From Lachnospiraceae bacterium (GTDB lineage Bacteria; Bacillota; Clostridia; Lachnospirales; Lachnospiraceae): 62,879 nucleotides of DNA. Below are positions 46,375 to 62,879 of this stretch, in pieces. The stretch is from the NCBI GenBank assembly GCA_017467845.1, contig JAFUKH010000002.1:1-62879 (forward strand). The letters run 5' to 3'. Each line of letters begins with the position of its first letter. Positions within the stretch are counted from its first letter, which is position 1. The notes beneath the pieces are model-generated. The model had not been told where the DNA came from. It did no database searches and worked only from the letters and a program-made list of their open reading frames with translations. The translations under genes and the position numbers were made by a program.

Positions 46375-46383
46375 AAATGATAG

Positions 46384-46424
46384 AAGCACTATCTTTTCAT
46401 ATCATGAAAAGATGGTGCTTTTTT
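46384..46424 (+). terminator. Intrinsic terminator after the kinase-like gene
   Basis: A 17-bp stem (46384-46400 with 46404-46420, one G-T pair) and a three-base loop, followed by TTTTTT. Confidence 0.9.
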
Positions 46425-46739: not shown

Positions 46740-48230
46740 ATGAGAAAGTTTATCAGTAAAGTTGGCTTAGTCACAACAGCGTTCTTATTAACCGGCTGTT
46801 CTGGTGAAGTCCAGGAGCCTGTGGCCACCGAAGCACCGAAGGTTTATGGTTGGGAGGATGCGATGGTTTACGAAGCGGAAGCCGGAACATTGGTTGGAAA
46901 TGTAAGAATCAATAAGGGAATCGTGGAAGGCTTTGAAAAGGCGGTGGAAGATACCTTGACCGTGAAAATACAGGTGGAAGAAACCGGGTTCTACGATATT
47001 AACGTGTCCAGCAAATCTATGGATGGTAATTACAAAGAGAATTACGTGTATGTGGATGGAGAAAAGCTGGGAACGGTTGCAGTAGAAGGTGAGAAGTTTA
47101 CAGATTCTATAATGAGACGCATCTATATGGAAGCCGGAGAGCATGATGTAAAGATTGAAGCTTACTGGGGCTGGATTGCAGTGGATAAGCTGGAGGTTAA
47201 GAAGTCAGATGAACTTGACCCATCCAGATTGGAAATTGAGCCGGTGCTGGTAAATGCTAATGCTACGGATTCAGCAAAGCGTCTGATGACTTATCTCTGT
47301 GATATTTACGGGACTGATATTTTATCCGGTCAGTACTGTGACACAGGCATGTACGGTAATGAAAATGCAGTTATCTGGAAGACCACAGGCGGCAAATATC
47401 CTGCAATCCTTGGTCTGGACATGATTGAATACACACCTTCCCGAGTTGCCAACGGTAGTAGCTCAGAGGCAGTTGAGCATGCCATCGAATGTTGGGAGAA
47501 CGGTGGAATTATTACTTTCTGCTGGCATTGGAATGCTCCGGAGAAATACATTACAGGCAAATGGTATTCTGCATTTTATAAAGAACATACCAACATCGAT
47601 TTGGCGAAGATCATGAGCGGGGAAGATCAGGAAGGCTACGACCTGTTGATGGCAGATATCGATGCTATTGCACAGCAGCTGTTAAGACTTCAGGAAGCAG
47701 ATGTTCCTGTTCTGTGGAGGCCACTTCACGAGGCCAGTGGCGGATGGTTCTGGTGGGGCAATGCCGGAGCGGATGCTTATAAAGAGTTGTACATATTGTT
47801 ATATGACAAGCTGACGAATGAATACGGATTAAATAACTTAATCTGGGTATGGAATGGTCAGGATAAGGATTGGTACCCGGGTAATGAATATGTAGACATC
47901 ATCGGTGAGGATATTTATCCCGGCGAAAAGGTATATACACCACAGACCGCCAAGTACTTAGAGGTTTTGGATTATACAGATGCGAAGAAGATGATTATTC
48001 TTTCGGAGAACGGCTGTATGTTTGACCCGGATCTGGCAATCAGGGATGGTGCAATGTGGGGTTCCTTCGCAACCTGGGGCGGTGAGTTCATCAGCGAATC
48101 TTCTACCTTAATGTTCTTGTCAGAGCAGTACACAGAAGAAGAGATGGTAAAGAAAGTATATAATCACGAGCATGTTATCACACGAGATGAGCTTCCGGAT
48201 TTGAAAAATTATCCGTTAAGGGAAGAGTAG
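46740..48230 (+). CDS. Exported CBM35-GH26 lipoprotein (beta-mannanase-like)
   Basis: A 496-residue lipoprotein (lipobox LLTGC, Cys near residue 20). A CBM35-like module (about 38-160; YEAEAGTLVGN, ETGFYDINV, AGEHDVKIEAYWGW) precedes a GH26 barrel (about 180-490). The acid/base is Glu331 in LWRPLHEASGGWFWWG and the nucleophile is Glu423 in IILSENGC. It should cut mannan or a related glycan at the cell surface, producing oligosaccharides for import; its cytosolic counterpart is encoded at 33516. It starts a long same-strand run: the next gene begins 16 bases after its stop. Ribosome binding is weak (GAAAGAGCAG region). Endo-mannanase is likely, other GH26 activities possible. Confidence 0.9.
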   Translation: MRKFISKVGLVTTAFLLTGCSGEVQEPVATEAPKVYGWEDAMVYEAEAGTLVGNVRINKGIVEGFEKAVEDTLTVKIQVEETGFYDINVSSKSMDGNYKENYVYVDGEKLGTVAVEGEKFTDSIMRRIYMEAGEHDVKIEAYWGWIAVDKLEVKKSDELDPSRLEIEPVLVNANATDSAKRLMTYLCDIYGTDILSGQYCDTGMYGNENAVIWKTTGGKYPAILGLDMIEYTPSRVANGSSSEAVEHAIECWENGGIITFCWHWNAPEKYITGKWYSAFYKEHTNIDLAKIMSGEDQEGYDLLMADIDAIAQQLLRLQEADVPVLWRPLHEASGGWFWWGNAGADAYKELYILLYDKLTNEYGLNNLIWVWNGQDKDWYPGNEYVDIIGEDIYPGEKVYTPQTAKYLEVLDYTDAKKMIILSENGCMFDPDLAIRDGAMWGSFATWGGEFISESSTLMFLSEQYTEEEMVKKVYNHEHVITRDELPDLKNYPLREE

Positions 48231-48246
48231 TTTCAAGGAGATATAG

Positions 48247-51200
48247 ATGAAGAATAAAGGTTTCAAGAAAATATTAAGCATATGTTTATCTGCTGCATTT
48301 GCTCTTTCCATGGTACAGGGAATGCCGGTACAGGCAATGACTGACACCACCATGGAGGAGTATGAGGAGTTAATCGGTACCTATTCGATAGATGCTTCTG
48401 TTCTCGGTTATAACGAGTATGTAGCTTCCTATCCGGCAGATTATCCGGAAAAGGAAATTGTGATTTCCGCAGCGGATTTTGTCAGATATGAAGATGGTGG
48501 CGAAGCTGTGGCTCCGGTTACCTATGATGATTATGAGAACGTACCGGGCGGTGGCAAAAGCGTATATACTTCCGAAGAAGCACTCATTGAATATGAGTTT
48601 ACCGTAGAGGAAAGCGGATTCTATGATATTTCCCTTCTTTATTATCCTATTGAAGGTAAGAATTCTGAAATCCAGAGAGCTTTCTTCATTGATGGGGAGC
48701 TTCCTTATGGTGAACTTTCTCTTATTGAATTTAACCGTGTCTGGACCAATTCCGTATTTGATCTGGTGACCGATGAGAACGGCATCACTGTGAAAAATTG
48801 GGAAAAGGACAATCAGGGAAACGACGTAAAGCCGGGAACCATGGAAATTCCGGAGTGGGTAGAGAGTTATCTTTACGATAGTAACGGATATATAGTAACA
48901 CCACTAAATATTTATCTGGAGAAGGGTGTGCACACCCTTAGCATTGTTTCTCAGAGAGAACCAATGCTGCTCCACCAGATTATCTTTAATAATAGTAAGG
49001 ATATAGAAGACTACGCTTCCTACAAAGCATCTGTGGATGCCAAAGGAGCAAAGGATACCACTGGTGCGAATATTCGTATCGAGGCCGAAACAGCTGTAAA
49101 AACGTCCTCCCAGATGTTGTATCCAAGACAAGACCAGTCTTCACCGGCGGTGTATCCATCCAGCCCCAAGGTGCTTCTCAATAACACCATTGGCGGAACC
49201 TCATGGCAGGATGCCGGTAAATGGATTGAGTGGGAATTTGAAGTACCGGAAAGTGGTTACTACAATATTTCTATGTTCTGTAAACAGAACTTCGTAAGAG
49301 GTATTGATGTCTGCAGAAGAATCCGTATTGATGGGCAGGTTCCTTTCTCTGAATTGAATGATTACGGTTTTTCTTATGAGCAGAGCTGGCGAGAAGAAAC
49401 CTTCCAGGATGAAAGCGGCAATCCTTACAGCTTCTACTTGGAGGCAGGAAAGCATACACTTCGCATGGAAGTAGTATTGGGTGATATGGCAGAGATTATC
49501 AGCACTGTTCAGGAAGCGGTACAGCAGCTGAACAGTATTTATCGCCAAGTGATCTATATTACCGGTGTAGCACCGGATCAGTATCGTGACTATCAGATTG
49601 AAGCAACTCTTCCGGGATTGGAAGCGCAGCTGGTAGATACTAAGGGGCTTTTGGATGAGGCTCTTGCAGCATTGGAGATTACCGCTGGTAATAACTCTGA
49701 TAAGCTGACCGTGCTTCGTACTATGATTGACCAGTTAGAAGAATTGATTGAAGACCAGGAGCGTTTTACGGAGGTAATTGCTTCCTATAAAGTAAATGTG
49801 AGAGCGTGTGGTAACTGGATTACACAGGTACTTCCGCAGCCACTTCAGATTGACAGAATCATGGTTTACTCACCGGACAGCAAGGCGGAAATTGAGGATG
49901 ACAGCTTCCTTTCCAGAGCCGGATATGAAATTAAGAGACTTTATTACTCCTTCATCGTGGACTATAACCAGATTGGTAATGTGGTGGAAGAAGGAGAGGA
50001 CAGCAAGATTTTAACTCTTTGGGTTGGTACCGGACGTGATCAGGCAAATGTTATCAAGGCTTTGATTGACGAGAGATTTACCAATGAAACCGGCATCAGC
50101 GTAAATGTACAGTTGGTTGATATGAATACTCTTCTCCGTGCAACTCTTGCGGGAGAGGGACCGGATGTGGCAATTCAGGTAGCAAACACCAACGGTATTG
50201 CCGGAGCAGTACTTAATACAGGTAATGATACTCCTGTAAACTATGGACTTCGTAATGCAGTACTGGATTTAACCCAGTTTGAGGATTTTGAGGAAGTAAC
50301 CCAGAGATTTTCCGAAAGTGCACTTGTACCCTTCAGCTTTGACGGTGCAACCTATGCACTGCCGGATACCCAGACCTTCCCGATGATGTTCTATCGCAAG
50401 GATATCTTAGCGGAGATTGGACTTGAGGTTCCTACTACTTGGTCAGAAGTTAAGGTGGCAATGACCGTACTTGCTAAGAATCAGATGGAGTTCGGTATGT
50501 TACCAAGTGAGCAGATATATGCAATGCTCCTGTTCCAGAATGGCGGAGAGTATTACACCGAAAACGGTGATGCATCTGCATTGGATTCCGATATCGCAGT
50601 AAGCACCTTCAAGGAGTACTGCGAGTACTACACCGATTATAAATTGGATAAGGCAACCAGTGTGGAAGAAAGATTCCGTACCGGTGAGTGTCCGATTATT
50701 ATTTCAGATTACACTACTTACAACAACCTGCAGGTATCCGCACCCGATATTGCCGGACTTTGGGACTTCACCGTAGTTCCCGGCGCATTGCAGGAAGATG
50801 GCAGTATCCTTCATACCACAGGTAGTACCGGTCTGGCTGACATCATCATGGCAGACACGGAGTACCCGGAAGAATGCTGGGAGTTCTTAAAATGGTGGAC
50901 CAGCGCAGAGACCCAGACCCTCTATGGTAGAGAAATGGAGAGCTTGATGGGCGCCAGTGCAAGAGTTGCCACAGCTAACTTGGAAGCCCTTGGAAATCTG
51001 TCATGGCCGATTCGTGATTATAGAGAAATTATGGAGCAGTATTCTCAGGTTCGGGGAATTCCTCAGGTGCCCGGCGGATACTACTCATGGCGTAACTTAA
51101 ACAATGCATTCTACAGTGTAACCACTGATTCTTCATCAACAGGAAGAACAAGCGTTGCAACACCAAGGGAAGAGCTGATGGATAAGGTACTCTATATTAA

Positions 51201-51255
51201 TGCAGAAATTGATTACAAGAGAGAAGAATTTGGCTTACCGATTGCCGGTGAGTAG
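48247..51255 (+). CDS. Exported carbohydrate-module/solute-binding protein fusion
   Basis: A 1002-residue exported protein. The signal peptide ends near PVQA (about 31) without a lipobox cysteine. Two CBM35-like sandwich modules follow (about 75-265 and 275-425), both carrying the phrase ESGFYDI or ESGYYNI and an AGKHTL-type strand. A helical linker with coiled-coil character (about 425-545) leads to a CUT1 solute-binding domain (about 585-990, starting KILTLWVGTGRDQANV). A binding protein of an importer fused to carbohydrate modules is unusual; without a lipid anchor it must be held in another way or be released. Two permease genes follow, so it should feed them. Ligand unknown; mannan fragments are suggested by the preceding GH26. 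Confidence 0.85.
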   Translation: MKNKGFKKILSICLSAAFALSMVQGMPVQAMTDTTMEEYEELIGTYSIDASVLGYNEYVASYPADYPEKEIVISAADFVRYEDGGEAVAPVTYDDYENVPGGGKSVYTSEEALIEYEFTVEESGFYDISLLYYPIEGKNSEIQRAFFIDGELPYGELSLIEFNRVWTNSVFDLVTDENGITVKNWEKDNQGNDVKPGTMEIPEWVESYLYDSNGYIVTPLNIYLEKGVHTLSIVSQREPMLLHQIIFNNSKDIEDYASYKASVDAKGAKDTTGANIRIEAETAVKTSSQMLYPRQDQSSPAVYPSSPKVLLNNTIGGTSWQDAGKWIEWEFEVPESGYYNISMFCKQNFVRGIDVCRRIRIDGQVPFSELNDYGFSYEQSWREETFQDESGNPYSFYLEAGKHTLRMEVVLGDMAEIISTVQEAVQQLNSIYRQVIYITGVAPDQYRDYQIEATLPGLEAQLVDTKGLLDEALAALEITAGNNSDKLTVLRTMIDQLEELIEDQERFTEVIASYKVNVRACGNWITQVLPQPLQIDRIMVYSPDSKAEIEDDSFLSRAGYEIKRLYYSFIVDYNQIGNVVEEGEDSKILTLWVGTGRDQANVIKALIDERFTNETGISVNVQLVDMNTLLRATLAGEGPDVAIQVANTNGIAGAVLNTGNDTPVNYGLRNAVLDLTQFEDFEEVTQRFSESALVPFSFDGATYALPDTQTFPMMFYRKDILAEIGLEVPTTWSEVKVAMTVLAKNQMEFGMLPSEQIYAMLLFQNGGEYYTENGDASALDSDIAVSTFKEYCEYYTDYKLDKATSVEERFRTGECPIIISDYTTYNNLQVSAPDIAGLWDFTVVPGALQEDGSILHTTGSTGLADIIMADTEYPEECWEFLKWWTSAETQTLYGREMESLMGASARVATANLEALGNLSWPIRDYREIMEQYSQVRGIPQVPGGYYSWRNLNNAFYSVTTDSSSTGRTSVATPREELMDKVLYINAEIDYKREEFGLPIAGE

Positions 51256-51268
51256 AAAGGAGGAAAAC

Positions 51269-52216
51269 ATGGACACACAAGAAATGACCATATCTCAGGA
51301 AGCTTTGGATATTGCAAAAAAGCAGGCTTTGCTTAGCTACCAGATTAAAAGAAATAAAGCATCCTACTTTATGCTGGCACCATATTTTATTCTGTTTTTC
51401 TTCTTTACCGTATTGCCGGTAGCGATATCCGTAGGCTTGTCTTTTACGCACTTTAATATGTTGGAAATGCCCACTTTTGTAGGCTGGAAAAATTACATTA
51501 AGCTGTTTTTAGAGGATGACATCTTTATGATTTCCTTGAAGAACACCTTGCTCTTTGCAGTAATCACAGGACCGATTTCTTATATGCTGTGTTTACTCTT
51601 TGCATGGATTATCAATGAGTTCAAAGGAAAGGTGAGAGCCTTCCTTACCTTGATTTTCTATGCGCCATCCATTTGCGGTAACGCATACTTGGTTTGGAAC
51701 TTAATCCTTACCGGTGACCGCTATGGATACTTAAACGGTATTTTGCTTGAGCTGGATATCATCAACGAAGCAAAGCTTTGGATGCAGACAGAAAAGTACG
51801 TTTTACCCGTACTTATTGTAGTTCAGCTCTGGTTATCCTTAGGAACCGGTTTCCTTTCCTTCATTGCAGGTCTTCAGACCGTGGATAAGAGCTTATACGA
51901 GGCGGCAGCCTTAGATGGTGTTAAGAACCGCTGGCAGGAGCTTTGGTATGTAACTCTTCCGGCAATGAAGCCGCAGCTGATGTTCGGTGCGGTAATGCAG
52001 ATTACCCAGTCCTTTGCGGTAGCGGATATCTCCATTAACTTGGCAGGTAACCCATCTGTAAATTATGCCGGTGCAACGGTAGTAACCCATCTTCTGGACT
52101 ATGGTTCCACTAGATTTGAAATGGGCTACGCATCAGCAATTGCAACCGTACTCTTCCTGTTAATGGTAGGTACAAATAAATTAGTTCAGAAAGTTTTAGG
52201 AAGGGTAGGCGAGTAA
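51269..52216 (+). CDS. Sugar ABC transporter permease (MalF type)
   Basis: A 315-residue permease with six predicted helices. I start at ATG 51269, behind AAAGGAGG, although the frame is open into the preceding gene. A charged, helical N-terminal segment of about 30 residues precedes helix 1. The EAA loop is EAAALDGVKNRWQELWYVTLP (about 212-232). It pairs with the next permease, whose TTG start is 1 base after this stop. Its binding protein is most likely the fusion encoded immediately upstream. Confidence 0.9.
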   Translation: MDTQEMTISQEALDIAKKQALLSYQIKRNKASYFMLAPYFILFFFFTVLPVAISVGLSFTHFNMLEMPTFVGWKNYIKLFLEDDIFMISLKNTLLFAVITGPISYMLCLLFAWIINEFKGKVRAFLTLIFYAPSICGNAYLVWNLILTGDRYGYLNGILLELDIINEAKLWMQTEKYVLPVLIVVQLWLSLGTGFLSFIAGLQTVDKSLYEAAALDGVKNRWQELWYVTLPAMKPQLMFGAVMQITQSFAVADISINLAGNPSVNYAGATVVTHLLDYGSTRFEMGYASAIATVLFLLMVGTNKLVQKVLGRVGE

Positions 52217-52217
52217 A

Positions 52218-53111
52218 TTGGCAAAAAAAGATTATACAAAACCAAAAAAACGACTCTTCCGAAAACGCGAGAAGCAGTTAAATCGTTCCTTTGCGGGAAA
52301 CTCACTTTTGTTCTTTATCATGTTTATCTGTGGTATTTTCATGGTTTTACCGCTGGTCATGATAGTGAACAACGCATTGAAGCCGCTGGATGAGCTGTAT
52401 CAGTTCCCACCGAAAATCTTCGTGCGAAATCCTACTCTGGAGAACTTCTCCGACCTGTTCGTTCTTATGAACGATTCCTGGGTCCCGTTCTCCAGATATA
52501 TCTTAAACACCATCATCATTACTGGTGGTGGAATGGTAGGACACGTAATTGTAGCTTCCCTTGCAGCTTATCCTTTGGCTAAGCATAAATTTCCGGGAAA
52601 GAATATTCTTTTCAGCATGGTAGTACTCTCCATGATGTTCTCATGGACGGTTACACAGATTCCGCAGTACCTGATTATCTCGGCATTGCATATCAACAAT
52701 ACCTATGCAGCACTTATTTTACCGGCATGGTCTTTTGGTATGGGACTTTACTTGATGAAGCAGTTTATGGAGCAGCTTCCGGATTCCCTGATGGAATCCG
52801 CCAGACTGGATGGTGCAGGTGAGTGGAAGATTTTCTGGGAGATTGTTATGCCAAACGTAAAGCCGGCATGGCTTACTCTGGCAATCTTCCAGTTCCAGCA
52901 GATGTGGGGCAACACCGGTTCCTTATTCCTTAGAGATGAAGAGTTAAAGCCTCTCCAGTTCTCACTCCAGCAGATTACTGCCGGTGGTGTAGCCAGAGCA
53001 GGTGCGGCAGCAGCCGTAACATTCATCATTGCAGCAGTACCGATTGCATTCTTCTTGATTTGTCAGAGTAATGTCATAGAGACAATGACAACATCCGGTA
53101 TGAAAGATTAA
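52218..53111 (+). CDS. Sugar ABC transporter permease (MalG type), TTG start
   Basis: A 297-residue permease with six predicted helices after a strongly basic N-terminus (KKDYTKPKKRLFRKREK). The start codon is TTG; GGAAGGG and a near stop-start junction fit translational coupling to the upstream permease. The EAA loop is ESARLDGAGEWKIFWEIVMP (about 195-214) and the C-terminus is IETMTTSGMKD. It completes importer three. The next gene follows after 12 bases with GGGAGGAG. Confidence 0.9.
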   Translation: MAKKDYTKPKKRLFRKREKQLNRSFAGNSLLFFIMFICGIFMVLPLVMIVNNALKPLDELYQFPPKIFVRNPTLENFSDLFVLMNDSWVPFSRYILNTIIITGGGMVGHVIVASLAAYPLAKHKFPGKNILFSMVVLSMMFSWTVTQIPQYLIISALHINNTYAALILPAWSFGMGLYLMKQFMEQLPDSLMESARLDGAGEWKIFWEIVMPNVKPAWLTLAIFQFQQMWGNTGSLFLRDEELKPLQFSLQQITAGGVARAGAAAAVTFIIAAVPIAFFLICQSNVIETMTTSGMKD

Positions 53112-53123
53112 GGGAGGAGAGTT

Positions 53124-54611
53124 ATGAAGCTTAAGATTTATGCAAAGCGCTTAGTATCCGCTCTCCTTACAGCAGTGGTACTGGCGACAGGCGTAGGAAG
53201 CGTAGCAGAGGCGTCCAGCCTTCCATACAGCTCCTACAACTATACTTATTGGGAGGATATCGTGTTCACTCCCGCAGCATATGTTCCAAGATCCTCCGTA
53301 TCAGGAACCAGACTTGAGTTTGGCGGAGAATCCATCGGAGCATTTGTGAATCCTCAGGATTTGTGTAAATCCCCATCCGGTGACATCTTTGTGGCGGATA
53401 CGGGAAATAACCGAATCGTAGTGCTGAATTCTGATATGACACAGGTAATTAATATCGTTACTTCCTTTGATAACAACGGAATGGAAGATACCTTCAATGC
53501 ACCTTATGGTGTGGCAGTGTCAGACAGTAACCAGCTTTATATTGCAGATTCACAAAATCGTAGAATCGTGGTTCTGAATAAGGACGGTTCTCTTGCAAGA
53601 ATTATTGAAAATCCTACATCAGAGGCTTTGGAAGACGGCTTCGTGTTCACTCCTCTGAAGGTGGCAGTAGATTACGCAGACCGTGTGTACTGTATCGCAC
53701 AGAAGATGTACGAAGGTATCATGGTATTTGAGACCAACAATGAATTCGCAGGATTCTTCGGAACCATTTCCGTAGACATTACTCTATGGGAAAAGTTCTG
53801 GAGAAAAATAGCAACCAAGGAAGAGCGTAGCAAATCCCAGTTGTTCATTCCTACAGAATTTACCGGTATCGACATTGATCCCAGCGGATTTGTATATGCA
53901 TCCAATATTGATTCCAATGCCATTCAGGGTGTAAGAAGACTGAATCCAAAGGGCGAGGATGTTATTAAAAAAGGTGCTAATGAAAACCTGGGTGGTGATT
54001 TACAGTATGAAGGTAACACCGATTACTCCGGACCATCCCAGTTTACCGATGTAGTATACCGTAACAATGGTATCTACTCCTGCTTAGACAGAAAGCGCGG
54101 ACGTATCTTTACTTATGATCACGAAGGTAATCTTCTTTATATCTTCGGTGGAATGGGAACCCAGGCGGGAACCTTCTCCATGCCTGTGGCAATCGAGGAT
54201 GTAGGCGGTTATATCGTAGTATTGGATGCAGCCAGAGCGGAGATTTCCTATTTTGAGCCTACGGAGTACGGAAAGCTGATTAATGAGGCGGTTTCCTTAC
54301 GGTACGATGGTGATGAGGCACAGGCAGTAGAAATCTGGAAGCAGGTACTTATCCTAGATGAAAATAACGAGCTTGCCAATACCGGTATCGGTAAGGCTTA
54401 CCTGACAGCAGGTGATTATGAAGAGGCTATGAAATACTTAGAGCTGGGAAGAGCAAGAGATTACTACTCAGTAGCATTTAAGCGATTCAGAAACGATGTG
54501 CTTACTGCCAATGCCAATGTATTTTTGACGGGAGCAGCAATCGTTATCGCAGCGTTTGTGGTTTATAAACAGGTGAAAAAACGAAGGAAGGGGGAAAGAC
54601 GAAATGGGTAA
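53124..54611 (+). CDS. Membrane-anchored extracellular NHL beta-propeller with TPR
   Basis: A 495-residue protein. The signal peptide ends near VAEA (about 30). NHL-type propeller repeats span about 60-375 (SGDIFVADTGNNRIVVLN, NQLYIADSQNRRIVVLN and others). A tetratricopeptide segment follows (about 385-450; EAVEIWKQVL, TGIGKAYLTAGDYEEA). A C-terminal helix (about 462-482) and a basic tail (KQVKKRRKGERR) anchor it with the propeller outside. Propeller and TPR are protein- or ligand-binding scaffolds; no enzymatic motif is seen. Its last 8 bases overlap the next gene, which encodes a YIP1-like membrane protein, so the two are coupled and may form a complex with the flanking importers. Confidence 0.85.
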   Translation: MKLKIYAKRLVSALLTAVVLATGVGSVAEASSLPYSSYNYTYWEDIVFTPAAYVPRSSVSGTRLEFGGESIGAFVNPQDLCKSPSGDIFVADTGNNRIVVLNSDMTQVINIVTSFDNNGMEDTFNAPYGVAVSDSNQLYIADSQNRRIVVLNKDGSLARIIENPTSEALEDGFVFTPLKVAVDYADRVYCIAQKMYEGIMVFETNNEFAGFFGTISVDITLWEKFWRKIATKEERSKSQLFIPTEFTGIDIDPSGFVYASNIDSNAIQGVRRLNPKGEDVIKKGANENLGGDLQYEGNTDYSGPSQFTDVVYRNNGIYSCLDRKRGRIFTYDHEGNLLYIFGGMGTQAGTFSMPVAIEDVGGYIVVLDAARAEISYFEPTEYGKLINEAVSLRYDGDEAQAVEIWKQVLILDENNELANTGIGKAYLTAGDYEEAMKYLELGRARDYYSVAFKRFRNDVLTANANVFLTGAAIVIAAFVVYKQVKKRRKGERRNG

Positions 54612-55236
54612 ATATTTTTCAAAAGAGAAGTGGTCATATCTGCTTTACACACTTTCTCATCCCATGGATGGCTTTTACTGGATTCGTCACCAGGAGAGAG
54701 GAAGCGTCCCTATTGCAATCCTGGCGGTAATTCTTTTCTCCTTCAGTTTTTCTGCGAACAGATTATTAGCAAGCTTTGTAGTAAATGATCTGGACCCTCG
54801 TGGGGTAGATAGTTTATACGAGCTCTGTGGTATCTTAGTGTTCTTTTTACTTATGTGTGTCAGCAACTGGTCCGTAACTTGTTTAATGAACGGGGAAGGA
54901 CGTATGAAGGACATCACTATTGCGGTGGGCTACAGTACAGTACCCATTACTGTATCACTCCTTTTAGGAACCATTGTCAGTCAGGTAGTTGCAGATGATG
55001 AGCAAGCGTTTTATACCATCTTAATCGGTATCGGAATCGCATACGGACTGATTATGATGCTTATCGGAATCATGCAGGTGCACAATTACACATTGGGAAA
55101 GACACTGATTACCCTGTTTTTAACCTTTGTAGCGATGCTGATTATTATCTTCATTACCTTACTTCTGGCAAATATGCTCAGTCAGGTAGTGACATTCTTT
55201 AAAAGTATTTACACAGAAATCATATTTAGGGGATAA
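54604..55236 (+). CDS. YIP1-like multi-helix membrane protein
   Basis: A 210-residue membrane protein. A short cytosolic N-terminus with the YIP1-typical HPMDGFYWIRHQERGS leads to five predicted helices. FLLMCVSNWSVTCLMNGEGR followed by MKDITIAVGYSTVPI is also characteristic of the family. It starts inside the last 8 bases of the NHL-TPR gene. Bacterial YIP1 proteins have no established function. Here the fixed neighbours are an exported propeller, a DUF5696-like ectoprotein and two sugar importers, suggesting a role in assembly or gating of that membrane machinery. Confidence 0.8.
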   Translation: MGKYFSKEKWSYLLYTLSHPMDGFYWIRHQERGSVPIAILAVILFSFSFSANRLLASFVVNDLDPRGVDSLYELCGILVFFLLMCVSNWSVTCLMNGEGRMKDITIAVGYSTVPITVSLLLGTIVSQVVADDEQAFYTILIGIGIAYGLIMMLIGIMQVHNYTLGKTLITLFLTFVAMLIIIFITLLLANMLSQVVTFFKSIYTEIIFRG

Positions 55237-55248
55237 GGAGGCAAGGGC

Positions 55249-57855
55249 ATGAAAGCATCAAAGAAACAAAAAATTAAAAAGCCTATGAGCCTGATGAAAA
55301 AAATCCTGCTTGTTATCCTCGCTGTGGCAGCTGTAATCGGTATCATTTATCTGGCGTATTACCTGATAAATTACACCTTTTACGATAAATATGAGGATTA
55401 TCTAACCTCTTATGAATATGAAGAGGGCGCAGATTATCATACACTTTCCGATTCAGGAAAGGAAGTAGTGGGAATGGATCTGGTGGCAGAGAATGATACG
55501 TTAAAGCTCTACACCAATACCGAAACTGCGGAAATTGCAGTCTATGATAAGAGAAATGGTGAGATCACCTACTCAAATCCACAGGATGCTGATGAAGATT
55601 CCATCGCAAACGGTACCAATAAGGACTACATGAAATCCCAGTTTATCCTGTACTACTACAATGCAGATGTAAAATCCGGTACCTTTGATTCCTACAGCAT
55701 GGCGGTAGAAAAAGGCCAGTTGGAAGTAGAGTCTATTGAAAACGGTGTTCGTTACATTTACACCTTAGGTGATTTTGAAACCAGCAGAACCGGAAATATT
55801 CCGCTCTACATAACGCCGGAGCTTTTAGCAGACCTGCAGAGCAAGGTAGATGAGAAAACTGCTACCAGCTTAGGACGCTACTATGGCGAAAGTGAAACCG
55901 TGGAGGGAATGCTGGAGCTGAATGGTGTTATTCAGCGAAATGTAAAGACCATTGCTAAGATTCAGGGCTGGTTCGATGAGCTGGGCTGGACCGATGAGCA
56001 GTACGAGGAGCAGATGGCACTGGCAGGTGTGGAAGTGGAACAGCCTATTTCCTTTATTGTACCTGTAGAGTATCGCTTAAACGGAGACAGTGTGGACGTA
56101 TCCATTCCTACTTCTCAGATTGAGGAGTTTGGTGGCGGAAGCGTTTATCGTATTCAGCTCCTTCGTTATATGGCAGCAGCGGACATGGAGGAAGAGGGCT
56201 ACATGGTAGTTCCCAACAGCTCCGGTTCCTTGATTAACTTTAATAACGGTAAAACCAATGTTGCACAGTATTCACAGTACATTTACGATTTGGATCCGAT
56301 TTCAGCAAACTATACCACTACCGAAAATCTTGATAGTGTAAAGCTTCCTCTTTTCGGTATCTGTAGGGAAGACACCAGTGTACTTGCTACTGTGGAAGAT
56401 GGTGCCACCATTGCGCAGATTACTGCCGGTGTATCCGGAGTATACGGTGAATATAATTATGTATACCCAAGCTTTACCTTACGTACTGCAGATAACCTGC
56501 AGATGTTCGGCGATTCCGCAACAGAGGTATATGTACTTGAGCCGGAAATGTATGATTGCAACCTGACAGTGAAGTATACCTTCCTCACTGAGGAAAATAA
56601 GGGCTATGCAGGACTTGCGAATTATTACAGAAACAGACTTCTTGCAGAGGGAAGACTGAAGGATAATGACACTAGCGGAGATATTCCTTTCTACTACGAT
56701 ATTATCGGCAGCGTGAAAGAGACTTCCCATATCTTAGGTGTACAGTATCTTCACAACTTTGCGATGACAACCTTTGAAGAGGCAGAAACGATTTTCAAAG
56801 AATTTGCAGCAGCCGGGATTACTAATCAGGTAATGAATTACCAGGGCTGGATGAATGGTGGTTACTACCACGATACAGCGGATAAGATTCGCGTGGTATC
56901 AAAGCTTGGTGGTAAGAGCGGTTTAGAAAGATTAAATGAAACCGTCGCAGCAGGCGGTGGACGTTTCTATGGTGATGTGGCATTCCAGAACGTATCCTTT
57001 GTAGATGACGGATTCAACTACAGCGCAGAGGGGTCCAGATATTACGGAGCAGGATATGTAGTAAGCTTCGGTCTGGTAAATCCCACTACCTTAAGGGCAA
57101 CTTCCGGACTTGGCTATTACGAAAACAAATACGACTTACTTTCACCAAAGTATTTGCCAAGATATGTTGATAAGTTTTCTTCAAAGATTACAAAGATGGA
57201 TGTTGACGGCGTTTCCTTAAGAGATTTAGGAAATTACTTACACTCTGATAAGAAACGAACCAATGTAATTACCAGAGAAGAAGCATATGATGTAGTGATG
57301 GGACAGTGGGAGACCTTAGAGACCACAGGTAAGAATTTGATGGCTACCGCAGCTAATGATTACACCTTTGGTTATGTTACCGATATCATCAATGCACCGA
57401 TTATGCCCAATGATTTCTTTATCGTAGATGAAGACATTCCGCTCTATGAAATGATTATTCACGGAAATATCAATTACTCTACAGAGCTTTTGAATTTCTA
57501 TGACCAGCAGGATATGACGGAAGTCATCCTGAATATGATTGAATATGGTGCAGCTCCTCACTATGTATTTACATGGGAGGAATCCAGCGAGATGAAGCAG
57601 ACAGCTCTGAACCGCTACTATGCTACAACTTATGCGAATTGGAAGGATGAAGCAATGGATGTATACAATCAGGTGAATGCAGCCCTGAAGGAAGTGTCCG
57701 GTGCAACCATGATTAATCACGAAATTATTGAAGAAGATTTACGTAAGGTGACATATGACAATGGTGTCAGCATCTATGTAAATTATAGCAACGACGACAA
57801 GAGTATTGATGGTATTACTATCAAGGCAAATAGCTACGAAATGGAGGGGATTTAA
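55249..57855 (+). CDS. Large membrane-anchored ectoprotein, DUF5696-like
   Basis: An 868-residue protein that I assign tentatively to DUF5696. A basic N-terminus and one helix (about 18-42) anchor it, with the remainder outside. The first half (about 60-450) is beta-rich and begins with a domain like the galactose-mutarotase fold seen before some glycosidase barrels. The second half (about 460-850) reads like a TIM-barrel glycosidase: TKMDVDGVSLRDLGNYLHSD, IVDEDIPLYEMIIHG and FTWEESSEMKQT offer conserved-looking acidic residues. No known GH signature is recognised, so enzymatic function is inference. It lies between a YIP1-like gene (12 bases before) and a permease pair (2 bases after). Confidence 0.75.
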   Translation: MKASKKQKIKKPMSLMKKILLVILAVAAVIGIIYLAYYLINYTFYDKYEDYLTSYEYEEGADYHTLSDSGKEVVGMDLVAENDTLKLYTNTETAEIAVYDKRNGEITYSNPQDADEDSIANGTNKDYMKSQFILYYYNADVKSGTFDSYSMAVEKGQLEVESIENGVRYIYTLGDFETSRTGNIPLYITPELLADLQSKVDEKTATSLGRYYGESETVEGMLELNGVIQRNVKTIAKIQGWFDELGWTDEQYEEQMALAGVEVEQPISFIVPVEYRLNGDSVDVSIPTSQIEEFGGGSVYRIQLLRYMAAADMEEEGYMVVPNSSGSLINFNNGKTNVAQYSQYIYDLDPISANYTTTENLDSVKLPLFGICREDTSVLATVEDGATIAQITAGVSGVYGEYNYVYPSFTLRTADNLQMFGDSATEVYVLEPEMYDCNLTVKYTFLTEENKGYAGLANYYRNRLLAEGRLKDNDTSGDIPFYYDIIGSVKETSHILGVQYLHNFAMTTFEEAETIFKEFAAAGITNQVMNYQGWMNGGYYHDTADKIRVVSKLGGKSGLERLNETVAAGGGRFYGDVAFQNVSFVDDGFNYSAEGSRYYGAGYVVSFGLVNPTTLRATSGLGYYENKYDLLSPKYLPRYVDKFSSKITKMDVDGVSLRDLGNYLHSDKKRTNVITREEAYDVVMGQWETLETTGKNLMATAANDYTFGYVTDIINAPIMPNDFFIVDEDIPLYEMIIHGNINYSTELLNFYDQQDMTEVILNMIEYGAAPHYVFTWEESSEMKQTALNRYYATTYANWKDEAMDVYNQVNAALKEVSGATMINHEIIEEDLRKVTYDNGVSIYVNYSNDDKSIDGITIKANSYEMEGI

Positions 57856-57857
57856 AT

Positions 57858-58787
57858 ATGGCAAAGAAAAAAGCTAAATTATCTCTTCTTCAGAAGCGTA
57901 TGCGAACCGGATATTTATTTATCCTTCCCTGGTTTATCGGATTCGTACTTTTCTATGTACGTTCTCTGATAATGACCGGACAGTTCGCATTTTCGGAGCT
58001 GACCATGAATGCCGGGGAAGGCGGATACTCCCTGACCTTTACGGGACTTGATAATTTTATCTATGCTTTCCGTGCACATGCGACCTTTAAGCAGGTGTTG
58101 ACCACTTCTATCGGCAACATGCTGGTGGATGTTCCGCTGATTATTTTCTTCAGCTTGTTTATGTCGCTGCTTTTGAATAAGAAATTCCCGGGAAGATTCA
58201 TTGTGAGGGCAATTTTCTTCCTGCCGATTATTTTAAATGCAGATGCAATAACCGCTGCACTTGAGCTTTCTGCAGCTATGATGAATGGTGGTATCTCTAC
58301 CATGGCAACCGAAGTGGTAGAAAATGCAACCGCAACAAGCTCCGGTATGAGCATGGATTACTTTATTGACCTGTTCATGAGTCTTGGTATTCCGACCTCG
58401 CTCTTGGATTATGTAATGGCTGCCGTAGCCCGCATTAACGATATTATCTCCGCTTCCGGCGTACAGATCATTATCTTTATTGCAGCACTTCAGTCTATCA
58501 CACCTTCCATGTATGAGGTAGCTAAGATTGAGGGTGCTACCGGTTATGAAACCTTCTGGAAGGTAACCTTCCCAATGGTAATGCCTCACATCGTTACTAA
58601 TGTGGTGTATACCATTATTGATAACTTTGCTCGAAGCGAGGTTGTTGAGCTTGCTTACGATACAGCGTTTACGCAGTTCAATTACGGACTCAGTTCTGTA
58701 TTCAGTTTAGTAAGTACTATTATTACATGTATTATTTTAGTGGTAGTAGTCGGCTTCATTCAGAAGAAGACCTTCTATTATAACTAA
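57858..58787 (+). CDS. Sugar ABC transporter permease (MalF type)
   Basis: A 309-residue permease with six predicted helices. The EAA loop deviates from the norm: EVAKIEGATGYETFWKVTFP (about 214-233), with Val and Glu replacing Ala and Asp. An extra extracellular stretch between helices 3 and 4 (MNGGISTMATEVVENATATS, about 137-156) is unusual. It starts 2 bases after the DUF5696-like gene, so it is part of the same transcript, and pairs with the next gene. The binding protein is likely the one at 61734. Confidence 0.9.
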   Translation: MAKKKAKLSLLQKRMRTGYLFILPWFIGFVLFYVRSLIMTGQFAFSELTMNAGEGGYSLTFTGLDNFIYAFRAHATFKQVLTTSIGNMLVDVPLIIFFSLFMSLLLNKKFPGRFIVRAIFFLPIILNADAITAALELSAAMMNGGISTMATEVVENATATSSGMSMDYFIDLFMSLGIPTSLLDYVMAAVARINDIISASGVQIIIFIAALQSITPSMYEVAKIEGATGYETFWKVTFPMVMPHIVTNVVYTIIDNFARSEVVELAYDTAFTQFNYGLSSVFSLVSTIITCIILVVVVGFIQKKTFYYN

Positions 58788-58805
58788 GAGAAAGGAGAAA
58801 GAGCG

Positions 58806-59780
58806 ATGACACAATATTTAGACAGAGTAGCTAAAACATTTCAAGATGAAGATCAGCGAAAAAGTCTGTTCAATGATGTGAAAAATCTATTAATCAGCAT
58901 CGGACGAATCGCTATTTTGGTGGGTGTAAGCTACGTAATTCTTTCTCCGATAATCGGTATTATCGTTAATTCCTTCTCTTCCAATAAGGATGCGGTAAAT
59001 CCGATGGTATACGTATTACCACATGAGCCTACTTTAGAGAAATATAAGCTGGTAATTGAGCGTATGGATTATCTGCCGACCATGCTTAAGGATCTGGCTT
59101 ATTCAGCATCCCTGATGGTGCTTCAGATTCTGGTATGCTCCATGGTAGGATATGGATTCGCAAGATTTAATTTTCCGCTGAAATCTCTCTTGTTTGGATT
59201 TGTTGTGGTAATGATTGTTATTCCGGGACACAGTATTATGCTCCCTTTGTACATGACGTTTAAGGAATTTGACCCTCTTGGCCTGGCAACTGCCATTACA
59301 GGAGCACCTATCAATCTGATGGGTACACCCATACCGATGTATATTATGACCGTTTTCGGCTGTGGTGTCCGTTCCGGACTTTACATCTACATTTTTAACC
59401 AGTTCTTTAGAGGCCTTCCTAAGGAAATCGAAGAAGCGGCATTTGTAGATGGTGCGGGGGTATGGTACACCTACTTCCGAATTATGTTAGTAAACGCTAT
59501 GCCTTCTGTCATTACAGTTGCAGTTTTCTCTCTTGTATGGCAGTTCAATGATACGTTCTATGCAAACCTGTTCCTGATTCCGGAAAATATCGTAATCAGT
59601 AAGAAGATTTCTTCTCTTCAGATGGTAATTGCAAACGTAGATAAGATTCTGGAAGCAAATATTCAGGAGCTTTACCTGGATGCCGGAATTGTTCTGGTTA
59701 TTCTGCCGATAGTAATCATATATTGTCTGCTCCAGAGACATTTCATTGAAGGCGTAGAACGAAGCGGTATTGTTGGTTAG
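58806..59780 (+). CDS. Sugar ABC transporter permease (MalG type)
   Basis: A 324-residue permease with six predicted helices and a longer cytosolic N-terminus of about 30 residues (RVAKTFQDEDQRKSL). The EAA loop is EAAFVDGAGVWYTYFRIML and continues VNAMPS, so the usual LPxxxP is altered. The C-terminus (FIEGVERSGIVG) is MalG-like. AAAGGAG precedes the ATG. It completes importer four. Confidence 0.9.
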   Translation: MTQYLDRVAKTFQDEDQRKSLFNDVKNLLISIGRIAILVGVSYVILSPIIGIIVNSFSSNKDAVNPMVYVLPHEPTLEKYKLVIERMDYLPTMLKDLAYSASLMVLQILVCSMVGYGFARFNFPLKSLLFGFVVVMIVIPGHSIMLPLYMTFKEFDPLGLATAITGAPINLMGTPIPMYIMTVFGCGVRSGLYIYIFNQFFRGLPKEIEEAAFVDGAGVWYTYFRIMLVNAMPSVITVAVFSLVWQFNDTFYANLFLIPENIVISKKISSLQMVIANVDKILEANIQELYLDAGIVLVILPIVIIYCLLQRHFIEGVERSGIVG

Positions 59781-59835
59781 TCCTAGAGGGATTAACCTTA
59801 AAATCAACTTACACAATCAAAGGAGGATGAAGAAG

Positions 59836-61713
59836 TTGAAAAAGAAATTATTAGCAACACTTTTAGCCAGCTCTATGGTATTTGGCCTTGCAGCTTGCGG
59901 CGGTTCAGCAGAAACACCTGCTGCATCCGAACCTGTAGAAAGTTCTGTAGAAACACCAGTAGAATCTTCTACAGAAGCAACTCCTACCGAGGAGCCTGCT
60001 CCTGAGGTAGTACCTGCAAGTATTGATTTCGAGGACGGAAAGATGGACTTCGTATCAATGTATATGCAGGCAGGTAACTCAGACAACAGTGAGTTATCAA
60101 TTGTTGACAAGGACGGAAGCAAGAAATTATACGTTAAGAACGTAGACGGAAAGGTTTCTTACGTTGGTTTTGATCTTACAGCGTTACTTGGAGCAAATGT
60201 AGCAAATGTAGCTACTATCGAAATGACTATTACTACCGAACATGAAGGCGGCTTCAGTGCTACTTCCGGTAATATCATTTCTTGGGCAGGCGCTGATCTT
60301 GTAGAATACAAGGATGCATGGTCTGTTTACATGGAAAGCAAGAACCCTAACAAGGCCATCGCAAAGATTGAAGAGGGTGAAGAATTTGCAGCTGATGCAA
60401 ATAATATCATGATTGTAACCATGGATACCGATAACGGTCCCGATGAAGAAAACGGTGTAGGTAGCTTCTATATTGATGATGTACGTTTCTTAGACAAAGA
60501 TGGCAACTTAATTACCGCAGATACTTCTGTAGCATTTGTTGGTCCTGAAAGCTTTGCTCCTACCGGAGTGGATATGTCTAACCTTTGTGCTTTAACCGGC
60601 GCAGCTGAGGTAGAAGGCTTCCAGAAGGCACAGGCAGCATGGACGCAGGATGGTGTGGAATTAACTCAGGAAATGATTGATAAGTTAGTTCCCGGTTCTG
60701 TAATCGAAATCTCTTACACTAGTGAGACCGGTAATATGTGGATCGTAATGCCATGGGCAACCGCAGGCTGGATGAGAGTTGGCGATGGTACCAATGGTAA
60801 GTCTTATATAAACGGTTCTCAGAACATTTGTCAGGTAACCTACGAGCAGATCGAAGAATTCTGTGGCGAAGATAAGAGCACTTGGGGAGCAATGCTTCAG
60901 TGTGAGTCTGATGGTGCATGGGAAGTTTACAGTGTGAAGATTGGTCAGGCTGCTCCTGTATATGCATTATCTAATGTAACTGAAGTTACAGATTTCGTAG
61001 TAAGTGAGGGCGCATGGACTCAGAACGGTATCGAGCTTCCTCAGGAAGTATGGGATGCATTCGGTCCGGGCATGGCACTTGAGTTTACATACAGCAGTGA
61101 AACCGGAAAACTTTGGGCAGTAATGCCATGGGCAACCGCAGGTTGGATGAGAGTCGGCGACGGTACTAACGGTCAGGCAGTATGCTACGACGGTAAGTGC
61201 TACGTTACCTACGAGCAGATCGAAAGCTTCTGCGGCGAAGATAAGAGTACCTGGGGAGCAATGCTTCAGGCAGAGTCTGATGGCGCATGGGAAGTATACG
61301 GCTTAAAGATTGGTACTGTTTCTGAGATGAAGATGGTTAACAACAATGTGGAAATCGAAGGCTTCCAGAAGGCACAGGCAGCATGGACCCAGGATGGTGT
61401 GGAATTAACTCCTGAACAGCAGGCATTATTAGTTCCAGGCAGTGTAATTACCTTTAAGTTCAGCAGTGAGACCGGAAAACTTTGGGCAGTAATGCCATGG
61501 GCAACCGCAGGCTGGATGAGAGTTGGTGACGGTACTAACGGAACCGCAGCTTGTAAGGATGGCATTTGCCAGGTTACCTATGAGCAGATTGCAGAATTCT
61601 GTGGTGACGACCCAAGTACCTGGGGAGCAATGCTTCAGGCAGAATCTGATGGTGCATGGGAAGTTTACAGTGTAACAATTGGACAGAGTAAAGTGACTGA
61701 GACTGAGGAATAG
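59836..61713 (+). CDS. Surface lipoprotein with three tandem repeats, putative glycan-binding
   Basis: A 625-residue lipoprotein (lipobox GLAAC, Cys near residue 20) starting at TTG 59836: AAAGGAGG at 59819-59826 touches the ATG at 59827 but is 9 bases from the TTG. A Ser/Thr/Pro/Glu-rich linker (about 25-55) leads to a beta-sandwich-like module (about 58-205). Three repeats of about 115 residues follow (about 257-373, 380-494, 505-616), each with VMPWATAGWMRVGDGTNG, VTYEQI and STWGAMLQ plus SDGAWEVY. Conserved exposed tryptophans suggest carbohydrate binding. No catalytic motif is seen. It lies between permeases and a binding protein, so it probably captures substrate for importer four. Confidence 0.8.
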   Translation: MKKKLLATLLASSMVFGLAACGGSAETPAASEPVESSVETPVESSTEATPTEEPAPEVVPASIDFEDGKMDFVSMYMQAGNSDNSELSIVDKDGSKKLYVKNVDGKVSYVGFDLTALLGANVANVATIEMTITTEHEGGFSATSGNIISWAGADLVEYKDAWSVYMESKNPNKAIAKIEEGEEFAADANNIMIVTMDTDNGPDEENGVGSFYIDDVRFLDKDGNLITADTSVAFVGPESFAPTGVDMSNLCALTGAAEVEGFQKAQAAWTQDGVELTQEMIDKLVPGSVIEISYTSETGNMWIVMPWATAGWMRVGDGTNGKSYINGSQNICQVTYEQIEEFCGEDKSTWGAMLQCESDGAWEVYSVKIGQAAPVYALSNVTEVTDFVVSEGAWTQNGIELPQEVWDAFGPGMALEFTYSSETGKLWAVMPWATAGWMRVGDGTNGQAVCYDGKCYVTYEQIESFCGEDKSTWGAMLQAESDGAWEVYGLKIGTVSEMKMVNNNVEIEGFQKAQAAWTQDGVELTPEQQALLVPGSVITFKFSSETGKLWAVMPWATAGWMRVGDGTNGTAACKDGICQVTYEQIAEFCGDDPSTWGAMLQAESDGAWEVYSVTIGQSKVTETEE

Positions 61714-61733
61714 TATATAAGGAGATTAAAACC

Positions 61734-62879
61734 ATGAAAAATATCAAGAAATTTTTAGCACTTGGCCTTACTGGCGCAATGATGCTTGGAGTGGCAGGCT
61801 GTGGCGGTTCTGACGCTCCTGCAGCTTCAACACCTTCAGAAAGTACTCCGGCAGAGTCCAGCGTAGAGACTCCTGTAGCGGATAACAGTGGTTCTGCAAA
61901 TTCCGGAGAGACCAGACAGATTAATATCGGTACTTGGTGGGTACAGTATTATGATTCTTCCCACACTTCTGTAGAAGATGATCCTTCTTTCGCAGGTGAT
62001 GATCCGGCGTACATGAAGTTCGACAATGTTAAGAAGATTGAGGATAACTACAATGTACAGTTCTATTGGCAGAACTTAACCTACGCAGGTGTACAGGAGT
62101 CCATCAACAACTCCATCCTTGCAGGTTCTCCTGACTGTGATATCTACTTAGTAGATCTTACCTTCGGTATTCCTGCTCAGCTGAATGGACTTGCAACCGA
62201 TTTAAAGACCGTATTACCGGAAGACCATGACTTATTTACCGATCAGGAGCACGTAACCTATCTTGATCTGGGTGATGGCAAGGCTTGTCTCTTAAAGAGA
62301 ACCGAAGCACAGGCTTGTGTAGAAGCTACTTATCCTTTAGCATTCAATAAGCAGATGCTGGAAGACAACAACTTAGAGGATCCTAGAGAATTATATGAGA
62401 GAGGCGAGTGGACTTGGGATAAGTTCATTGAGTACTGTCAGGTATTAACTCAGGATACCGACGGTGACGGACAGATTGATCAGTATGGATTCTGTGGTTT
62501 CAAGAATGATGTATTTGAGCAGTTAATGATGAGTAATGGTGCAAATATTGCAGCCGGTACTACCGAAACTCTTACCTCTGCTGAAACCGGTGAAGCTCTT
62601 CAGATGTTCTACGATATGTACAACACCTACAAGGTTTGCTACCCATATGATGAGTCAGATAAAGACTCTGATACCATGAGAATCCAGTACCGTGAAGGTA
62701 ACATCGGCTTCTGGCCATGTGCAGCTTGGATTGCAGCAGCAGGTCCTGACTACGATCAGAATGGTGACGGAAGCACCATGCTTTCCTTCGATACCGTATA
62801 TGTTCGTTGGCCGGTAGGTCCTAGCGGTGATGCTGAGACTAACGCTGGTAAGCTTACCGCAGGTGAGTTCTATATCATC
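61734..62879 (+). CDS. ABC transporter substrate-binding lipoprotein, cut by the window end
   Basis: At least 382 residues; the frame is still open at the last base. The signal peptide ends at the lipobox GVAGC (Cys near residue 23), followed by a Ser/Pro/Glu-rich linker. The binding domain starts RQINIGTWWVQYYDSS, and DTDGDGQIDQYGF and NIGFWPCAAW are typical of large family 1 solute-binding proteins. AAGGAG precedes the ATG. It lies 20 bases after the triple-repeat lipoprotein and probably serves the permeases at 57858 and 58806. The missing C-terminal part and following genes lie outside the window. Confidence 0.9.
   Translation, partial: MKNIKKFLALGLTGAMMLGVAGCGGSDAPAASTPSESTPAESSVETPVADNSGSANSGETRQINIGTWWVQYYDSSHTSVEDDPSFAGDDPAYMKFDNVKKIEDNYNVQFYWQNLTYAGVQESINNSILAGSPDCDIYLVDLTFGIPAQLNGLATDLKTVLPEDHDLFTDQEHVTYLDLGDGKACLLKRTEAQACVEATYPLAFNKQMLEDNNLEDPRELYERGEWTWDKFIEYCQVLTQDTDGDGQIDQYGFCGFKNDVFEQLMMSNGANIAAGTTETLTSAETGEALQMFYDMYNTYKVCYPYDESDKDSDTMRIQYREGNIGFWPCAAWIAAAGPDYDQNGDGSTMLSFDTVYVRWPVGPSGDAETNAGKLTAGEFYII

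Follow-up and report, generated by a model that had tools for sequence, protein, structure and literature searches.

A conserved NHL-TPR, YIP1-like and DUF5696 trio accompanies paired CUT1-type permeases in a Lachnospiraceae glycan locus and across Bacillota

We analysed the whole of contig JAFUKH010000002.1 (62,879 nucleotides, hereafter the window) from a Lachnospiraceae bacterium (assembly GCA_017467845.1; 3.0 Mb, 86% complete), in which a run of eleven genes at 46740-62879 on the plus strand places three unexplained accessory proteins between the permeases of two putative sugar importers. These three, referred to here as the trio, are an NHL-TPR protein (53124-54611), a YIP1-like protein with five transmembrane (TM) helices (54604-55236) and a DUF5696 protein (55249-57855). 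They recur in the same order and directly ahead of a permease pair across Bacillota, and a joint function with the importers, as proposed in a preliminary description of this DNA, is strongly supported by gene order and co-occurrence. On balance, we favour the reading that the genes encode a Gram-positive glycan-uptake machine of two CUT1-type importers and three obligate accessory proteins, which we hold to be somewhat better than an even proposition.

The order was followed in 171 Bacillota loci, taken as distinct when the last 300 residues of their DUF5696 proteins differ, two duplicates over that stretch having been dropped before counting. They come from regions around the full-length copies in related genomes, from a scan of GTDB contigs and from a phylum-wide draw. 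Short search loci replaced by the window or by longer regions were also dropped (L001-L002, L004-L015 and L164-L182, with L166, L168 and L170 kept), the counts were taken from an annotation of all open reading frames (ORFs), and a locus was left out of a count when a contig end lay too close to judge the feature in question, hence totals of 154, 156 and 134 of the 171. Of the 154 loci in which 2.5 kb or more of upstream sequence is available, 153 have the NHL-TPR and YIP1 genes immediately ahead of DUF5696, the sole exception (L123) having both genes broken into frames, and two permease genes follow DUF5696 directly in all 156 loci with at least 2.2 kb downstream. An unbroken eight-gene run, consisting of a fusion of carbohydrate-binding modules and a solute-binding protein (CBM-SBP), PermA1, PermB1, NHL-TPR, YIP1, DUF5696, PermA2 and PermB2, is present in 129 of the 171 loci with contig-end cases counted as misses, a recurrence far beyond chance. 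Median gaps inside the run are -13 to 15 bases, and those to the second solute-binding protein (SBP2) 85-103. Contig titles among the loci include Paenibacillus, Cohnella, Butyrivibrio, Mahella, Gracilibacillus, Alkalihalobacillus and Lederbergia. The earlier suggestion of similar neighbourhoods in Paenibacillus proved correct, as 40 of the best 80 loci (from at least 579 DUF5696 relatives) carry that title and 37 of these 40 have the exact eight-gene order, the remaining three being cut by a contig end or frame-broken. One further contig, titled Bacillus subtilis DE0224 (L155), has the cassette in the Paenibacillus order; its title may be wrong or the assembly mixed. Two apparently giant permeases (871 and 821 aa, L203) are most likely start-codon overcalls.

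Co-occurrence was equally close. Of 61 related genomes, 26 contain DUF5696 at full length and four others only short matches, and the profiles of NHL-TPR (A7) and YIP1 (A6) match exactly the same 26. In a phylum-wide draw of 398 Bacillota genomes (57 DUF5696 matches, of which two were already in the set and 30 further regions were fetched), 37 genomes, belonging to 20 of the 267 genera, contain DUF5696 at a threshold of E 1e-40, and the other two profiles each match in 38, namely the 37 DUF5696 genomes plus one different genome each. The ten single-contig genomes among those 37 hold 13 DUF5696, 13 NHL-TPR and 13 YIP1 matches side by side (tables read by eye), and the general Yip1 model finds two proteins in the genome studied here, both inside cassettes. 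Seven of the 67 NHL-TPR matches in the related genomes appeared to stand alone, without full-length DUF5696 on the contig, and all seven hit a contig end. Similarly, of ten contigs with CBM-SBP but no DUF5696, nine end within about 200 bases of the run; in L214, L215, L221 and L223 the contig ends right behind CBM-SBP. The tenth is L222, taken up below. The preliminary description had stated that its proposal would fall if the three proteins lived mostly apart in other genomes; they do not, since they co-occur in the same 26 of 61 and 37 of 398 genomes and unpartnered copies mostly run into contig ends. PF18952, the Pfam model of DUF5696, gave sub-cut-off matches in two of 14 control genomes (Thermotoga maritima and Lactococcus lactis), and a Viral_contigs scan with DUF5696 gave five pattern matches, with no relative among them. 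Obligate co-occurrence and tight coupling would also fit a trio needed only for folding or insertion of the permeases, with no part in transport. Large, divergent ectodomains of carbohydrate-enzyme ancestry would be unexpected in such assembly factors, however, and to our knowledge most CUT1 importers need no such helper; we regard this explanation as very improbable.

The run falls into two blocks, the first being importer 1 (CBM-SBP, PermA1 and PermB1) and the second importer 2 (PermA2, PermB2 and SBP2). Where 7.5 kb or more of sequence precedes the trio (134 loci), CBM-SBP and PermA1/PermB1 lie upstream in 126, CBM-SBP is downstream in four and none was seen in L040, L185, L191 and L210. 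The 30 loci of the phylum sample have importer 1 upstream in 18 and downstream in five; of the seven in which none was seen, four have too little upstream sequence to exclude it, leaving L185, L191 and L210 with 7.5 kb or more. Two loci (L186 and L210) read SBP2-(NHL-TPR-YIP1)-DUF5696-PermA2-PermB2, with no importer 1 gene between. Importer 1 is separable, whereas a permease pair invariably stands behind DUF5696, and the trio is therefore assigned to importer 2. The earlier picture of two importers wrapped around the trio needs amending in this respect. The place of SBP2 varies, being mostly downstream in Lachnospiraceae and mostly upstream in Paenibacillus. In one locus (L151/L184), six SBP2-like ORFs, some perhaps fragments, stand in a row behind the cassette, as though several binding proteins served a single importer.

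NHL-TPR and YIP1 are fused in many loci. One polypeptide comprises both in 52 of 154, this genome's second cassette (L003; 688 aa) being among them, and on a FastTree tree of DUF5696, PermA2 and PermB2, built without the fused proteins themselves, the fused state (50 of 155) takes at least nine changes. Five genomes of families f66 and f81 (G100, G122, G142, G195 and G225) each carry at least seven cassette-type YIP1 genes, nearly all in long frames as in NHL-TPR fusions; one region from each (L191, L185, L190, L186 and L210) has no importer 1 directly upstream of the trio. In the window, the NHL-TPR protein (NHL 3.3e-12 and TPR_19 9.4e-06 in Pfam) is laid out as a signal peptide, an NHL propeller, TPR repeats, a C-terminal TM helix and a basic tail, and hydropathy finds a single helix at either end (hydrophobic segments 10-28 and 462-480). 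The YIP1 protein matches Yip1 (PF04893, 6.5e-12) with 46.1 bits against a curated cut-off of 28.6 and has five hydrophobic segments, read as five helices; its profile found no match among solved structures. In two fusions tested, the C-terminal helix is followed by four YIP1 helices above threshold. Taken together, these hydropathy profiles suggest that the propeller and TPR repeats lie outside and the fusion point inside the cell.

An alternative reading takes the trio as a surface sensor, in which NHL-TPR and DUF5696 bind glycan and YIP1 relays a signal that gates a regulator or the importer. In its favour, the propeller of mycobacterial PknD (1rwi, 7.4e-29) is matched by the NHL profile, and the single C-terminal helix with its basic tail is continuous with YIP1 in the fusions. 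Profile A7 matches both designed (Pizza) and PknD NHL propellers, but the designed ones match better; two permeases, moreover, follow in 156 of 156 loci, and no additional gene was found to occupy a constant position within the run, the flanking ORFs being mostly unannotated. We consider a sensor unlikely.

The third member, called DUF5696-like in the preliminary description, is a true DUF5696 by Pfam (PF18952, 5.8e-190) with an N-terminal TM anchor (hydrophobic segment 19-37). Profile A1, built from 20 members, matches the 3,6-anhydrogalactosidase DagB (5opq, 1.4e-11) in the N-terminal sandwich and C-terminal domain and NagBb of glycoside hydrolase (GH) family 129 (5wzn, 2.9e-06) at the barrel entry, and DUF5696 is accordingly described here, as judged from profiles, as a distant relative of GH129 and DagB. 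With E up to 0.1, the window protein matches PF18952 alone, so that the GH129 model PF11308 is not matched; a scan with PF11308 of 149 genomes, this one included, was also negative, although the controls were silent too and the scan is therefore weak. DagB, placed outside GH129 by its authors, requires Asp202, Asp486, Glu517 and Glu531, of which only Asp486 has a NagBb counterpart (Asp435) (PMC5698469).

These residues bear on whether DUF5696 cuts. The column aligned with DagB Asp202 holds, in 169 DUF5696 proteins, Gln in 66, Ala in 32, Gly in 18 and Glu in only 10. The barrel beyond residue about 565 is unaligned and the catalytic acid positions there rest on spacing; the catalytic half is taken as not alignable because the barrel-only profile A8 recovered no more of NagBb than that entry segment (E 0.0016-0.0022), its further matches being to unrelated proteins, in many cases phycocyanins. 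Asp667, which by spacing only falls roughly at the position of DagB Asp486 and NagBb Asp435, is Asp in 139 of the 169 and Glu in two, and is not Asp in 30 from several lineages. The other two common acids of the barrel half are steadier, Glu765 being Glu in 163 and Asp in five (acidic in 168 of 169) and Asp727 being Asp in 147 and Glu in one (acidic in 148). None of columns 668-726 in alignment A3, where spacing would put DagB Glu517 and Glu531, is acidic in 70% of its 60 rows. A DUF5696 subgroup that has the NHL-TPR-YIP1 fusion (L003, L020, L022-L026, L028 and others) carries Tyr or Asn in place of Asp667.

The profile similarity to the active DagB (1e-11) and to NagBb (3e-06), together with the three common acids Glu765, Asp727 and Asp667, is what would be expected if DUF5696, anchored in the membrane, were a working glycosidase that shortens oligosaccharides ahead of their import, with NHL-TPR and YIP1 only holding it near the importer. 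The loss of Asp at position 667 in 30 of 169 proteins, the scarcity of Glu in the Asp202 column and the lack of a widely acidic column between 668 and 726 in alignment A3 speak against it, and we treat an active enzyme as a minority possibility. Since the candidate catalytic acids vary, we lean, with modest confidence, to binding over cutting, and cutting by DUF5696 is doubtful. The preliminary description had pictured a complex that binds, cuts and hands over a polymer: a cutter is indeed present, namely the GH26 enzyme encoded just outside the stretch then described, and the preferred model for the trio would be capture and hand-over.

The transport parts are better defined. All four window permeases, two per importer as CUT1 requires, have an EAA loop, and an EAA-type pattern is found in 137 of 140 PermB1, 155 of 163 PermA2 and 161 of 162 PermB2 sequences. 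An apparent absence of a working loop in PermA1 (26 of 132 by pattern) was an artefact of too strict a pattern, as alignment showed the loop, most commonly as EAGxxDG or EAAxxDG. With these ATPase-coupling loops kept in all four permease families, two importers are expected. One OB_MalK ATPase, MsmX-like by eye, was found in the genome on contig C51, and others may be missing from the incomplete assembly. A motif scan within 12.5 kb of the cassettes gave nine ATPase-like ORFs, all outside the run, five of which (730-742 aa) lie behind it in Paenibacillus. The CBM-SBP family profile is nearest to Lin1841 (5ysb, 4e-23) and other sugar-binding proteins. A lipobox pattern occurs in 92 of 105 SBP2 and only 10 of 113 CBM-SBP family members, and the large binding protein is therefore probably held at the cell in another way.

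In the machine that we propose, both importers would draw on an MsmX-type ATPase encoded elsewhere. NHL-TPR and DUF5696 would work as a pair, each membrane-anchored with its domains on the outer side, and NHL-TPR would be joined, often covalently, to the five-helix YIP1, which would sit with PermA2 and PermB2. A surface enzyme such as the GH26 mannanase would cut the polymer, and the assembly would hold the resulting oligosaccharides as a physical complex and hand them to importer 2 (SBP2-A2-B2), whose pairing with SBP2 is probable from gene position, for transport inwards; in most sampled lineages they would also be passed to the companion importer 1 (CBM-SBP-A1-B1). More tentatively, and with odds that we would place well short of even, the cassettes may define a phylum-wide class of glycan uptake in which a surface hand-over complex of a disarmed glycosidase (DUF5696) and NHL-TPR is clamped to the permease by YIP1, as a Gram-positive functional counterpart of SusD-type capture that usually links two importers into one assembly.

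Distance matrices of the eight proteins from 130 complete loci correlate pairwise at 0.88-0.95. Partial correlations are highest for NHL-TPR/DUF5696 (0.50), followed by A1-B1 (0.48), CBM-SBP with B1 (0.40) and A2-B2 (0.36); YIP1 gives 0.28 with A2 and 0.24 with B2, and CBM-SBP 0.28 with A1 and 0.26 with DUF5696. Both permease pairs are thereby recovered, with YIP1 grouping with that of importer 2 and CBM-SBP with that of importer 1. Several points weigh against the proposed machine. The partial correlations derive from non-independent pairs with one alignment per family, and the value for NHL-TPR/YIP1 is only 0.13 although the two are fused in many loci, which tells against reading such values as contacts. 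A simple requirement for co-expression would explain the co-inheritance too. Profiles A6 and A7 were built from cassette members and detect this subfamily, not all NHL or Yip1 proteins; the phylum-wide scans scored the best few candidates per genome and undercount copies in multi-copy genomes, and the single GTDB contig scan that supplied the best 80 of at least 579 relatives is a biased sample. One genome (G302) has a 196-residue NHL-TPR fragment and another (G270) a weak YIP1 match, each without the other two proteins. In genome G053, one locus (L222) has CBM-SBP and PermA1 and, over the next 1.5 kb, neither PermB1 nor the trio, being either a true exception or a damaged copy, and another (L040) has no CBM-SBP upstream, so that G053 perhaps shows a split or decaying importer 1. 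Finally, the window contig ends before any intracellular mannan enzyme comes into view.

The run in the window bears out the compact, same-strand arrangement described before, with genes positioned as claimed. Its inter-gene gaps range from -8 to 46 bases and read, from the stop of the first gene onwards, 16, 13, 1, 12, -8, 12, 2, 18, 46 and 20 bases, which includes the 8-base overlap of NHL-TPR with YIP1 and the 2-base gap between DUF5696 and the next permease reported earlier; ORF starts were set at the first possible start codon, and gaps and lipobox counts are thus approximate. A unit of nine or more genes had been placed from 48247 onwards. The unit is confirmed, but it probably begins one gene earlier, at 46740, given the 365-base gap with a terminator-like hairpin ahead of that gene. 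The hairpin (46382-46422, plus strand; 19 pairs and then a T-rich tail, a consensus match only) may close the preceding unit. The first gene (46740-48230) encodes a GH26 beta-mannanase with CBM35 (PF02156, 4.8e-73; PF16990, 3.5e-14), a lipoprotein judging by its N-terminus by eye, and ends 16 bases ahead of CBM-SBP (48247-51255). The latter, of 1002 aa, has two CBM-like modules (by eye), a helical linker and a C-terminal solute-binding domain (PF01547, SBP_bac_1, at residues 602-890), with no lipobox seen. PermA1 (51269-52216; loop EAAALDG), which probably starts in reality at the ATG at 51269, preceded by a GGAGG stretch, and PermB1 (52218-53111; TTG start, loop ESARLDG) match PF00528. Behind the trio follow PermA2 (57858-58787; PF00528, loop EVAKIEG) and PermB2 (58806-59780; loop EAAFVDG), the latter assigned by permease profiles outside the Pfam scan, which found BPD_transp_1 in all three permeases scanned (PermA1, PermB1 and PermA2). 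A lipoprotein with three CBM65 domains (59827-61713; PF18259, 3.2e-57, three stretches) and the solute-binding lipoprotein SBP2 (61734-62879; PF01547, 9e-09), given to importer 2 by position and cut by the contig end, complete the view; since the window is the whole contig, the operon end lies outside it. An NCBIfam scan gave no match above cut-offs, with weak ones only to generic permeases, binding proteins and repeat proteins, and an Rfam scan of the window gave none at gathering scores. Elsewhere in the window, a 1005-aa protein (34519-37536) near another sugar importer combines SBP_bac_1 and SBP_bac_3 binding domains with a GGDEF diguanylate cyclase domain and is possibly a sugar sensor derived from a binding protein, and a 1029-aa protein (15320-18409) without a Pfam match at 1e-5 stands directly behind a GH94-like phosphorylase (12614-15307).

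The likely substrate here is beta-mannan, as the neighbouring genes suggest. The window unit has the GH26 mannanase with CBM35 and the CBM65 lipoprotein, and further genes stand in related loci, namely those for GH130, an epimerase and LacI in L071, for a CE2-type esterase in L016 and for GH5 with GH130 in L144, so that GH26 here and GH130 and epimerase there point to beta-mannan. A GH43 gene precedes the second cassette of this genome, and in a relative (G026) seven of eight cassettes lie beside GH28 with GH29, GH38, GH2 (two cassettes), GH35, uronate enzymes or GH30. Cassettes standing beside such differing carbohydrate-active enzymes suggest that the machine serves as one platform for several glycans.

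CUT1 oligosaccharide importers that share one MsmX/MalK ATPase are a known family concept, with which the locus shares MalF/MalG-type permeases with EAA loops, solute-binding proteins and an operon in which no ATPase is seen. It differs in having two importers per operon, a 1000-residue CBM-fusion binding protein without a lipobox and three extra proteins. A further related system is the maltose importer of Corynebacterium, a CUT1 system that needs the small integral membrane protein MusI as an auxiliary; we know of no propeller or glycosidase-like partner of MusI. From GH129 and DagB, which it resembles by profile in the DagB N- and C-terminal domains and at the NagBb barrel entry, DUF5696 differs in candidate catalytic acids that vary as far as they can be placed and in being membrane-anchored and tied to an importer. 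Literature searches whose coverage lacks most subscription journals found no paper on DUF5696 and nothing relevant on YIP1 or NHL with importer terms (for YIP1, bacteriocin papers only).

A Gram-positive polysaccharide utilization locus (gpPUL) has been defined by at least one polysaccharide-degrading enzyme, a carbohydrate transport system and a transcriptional regulator (PMC5320581). The GH26 protein with CBM35 at 46740-48230 supplies the enzyme, and three Pfam permeases, a fourth by profile and two binding proteins supply the transport system; as for a regulator, the LacI gene of L071 lies downstream, and in the window the contig ends within SBP2. The locus is thus a CUT1 import locus of the gpPUL type with unexplained accessory proteins. 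Beta-mannan loci of Roseburia intestinalis, for which GH26, GH130, an epimerase, esterases and LacI are reported, share with it the GH26 mannanase, a binding protein and two permeases, and with related loci GH130, epimerase, esterase and LacI (PMC6385246). They are unlike it in that the Roseburia passage names one binding protein and two permeases and the text does not contain the term NHL, YIP1 and DUF5696 not having been searched there (PMC6385246). The text on other mannan users contains none of the terms permease, YIP1, NHL and DUF (PMC13278490).

The cassette has consequences for how glycan uptake in this phylum is viewed. In 171 loci, from Lachnospiraceae to Paenibacillus, a permease pair is accompanied by three further proteins, and one sampled genome carries up to eight copies of the cassette beside different enzymes. 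Bacillota rank among the main degraders of glycans from plants and hosts, and their uptake is usually drawn as one binding protein plus two permeases; if the trio are importer subunits, the textbook CUT1 architecture would be incomplete for this class. DUF5696 would thereby gain a testable role, and the cassette may serve as a marker for glycan loci in metagenomes.

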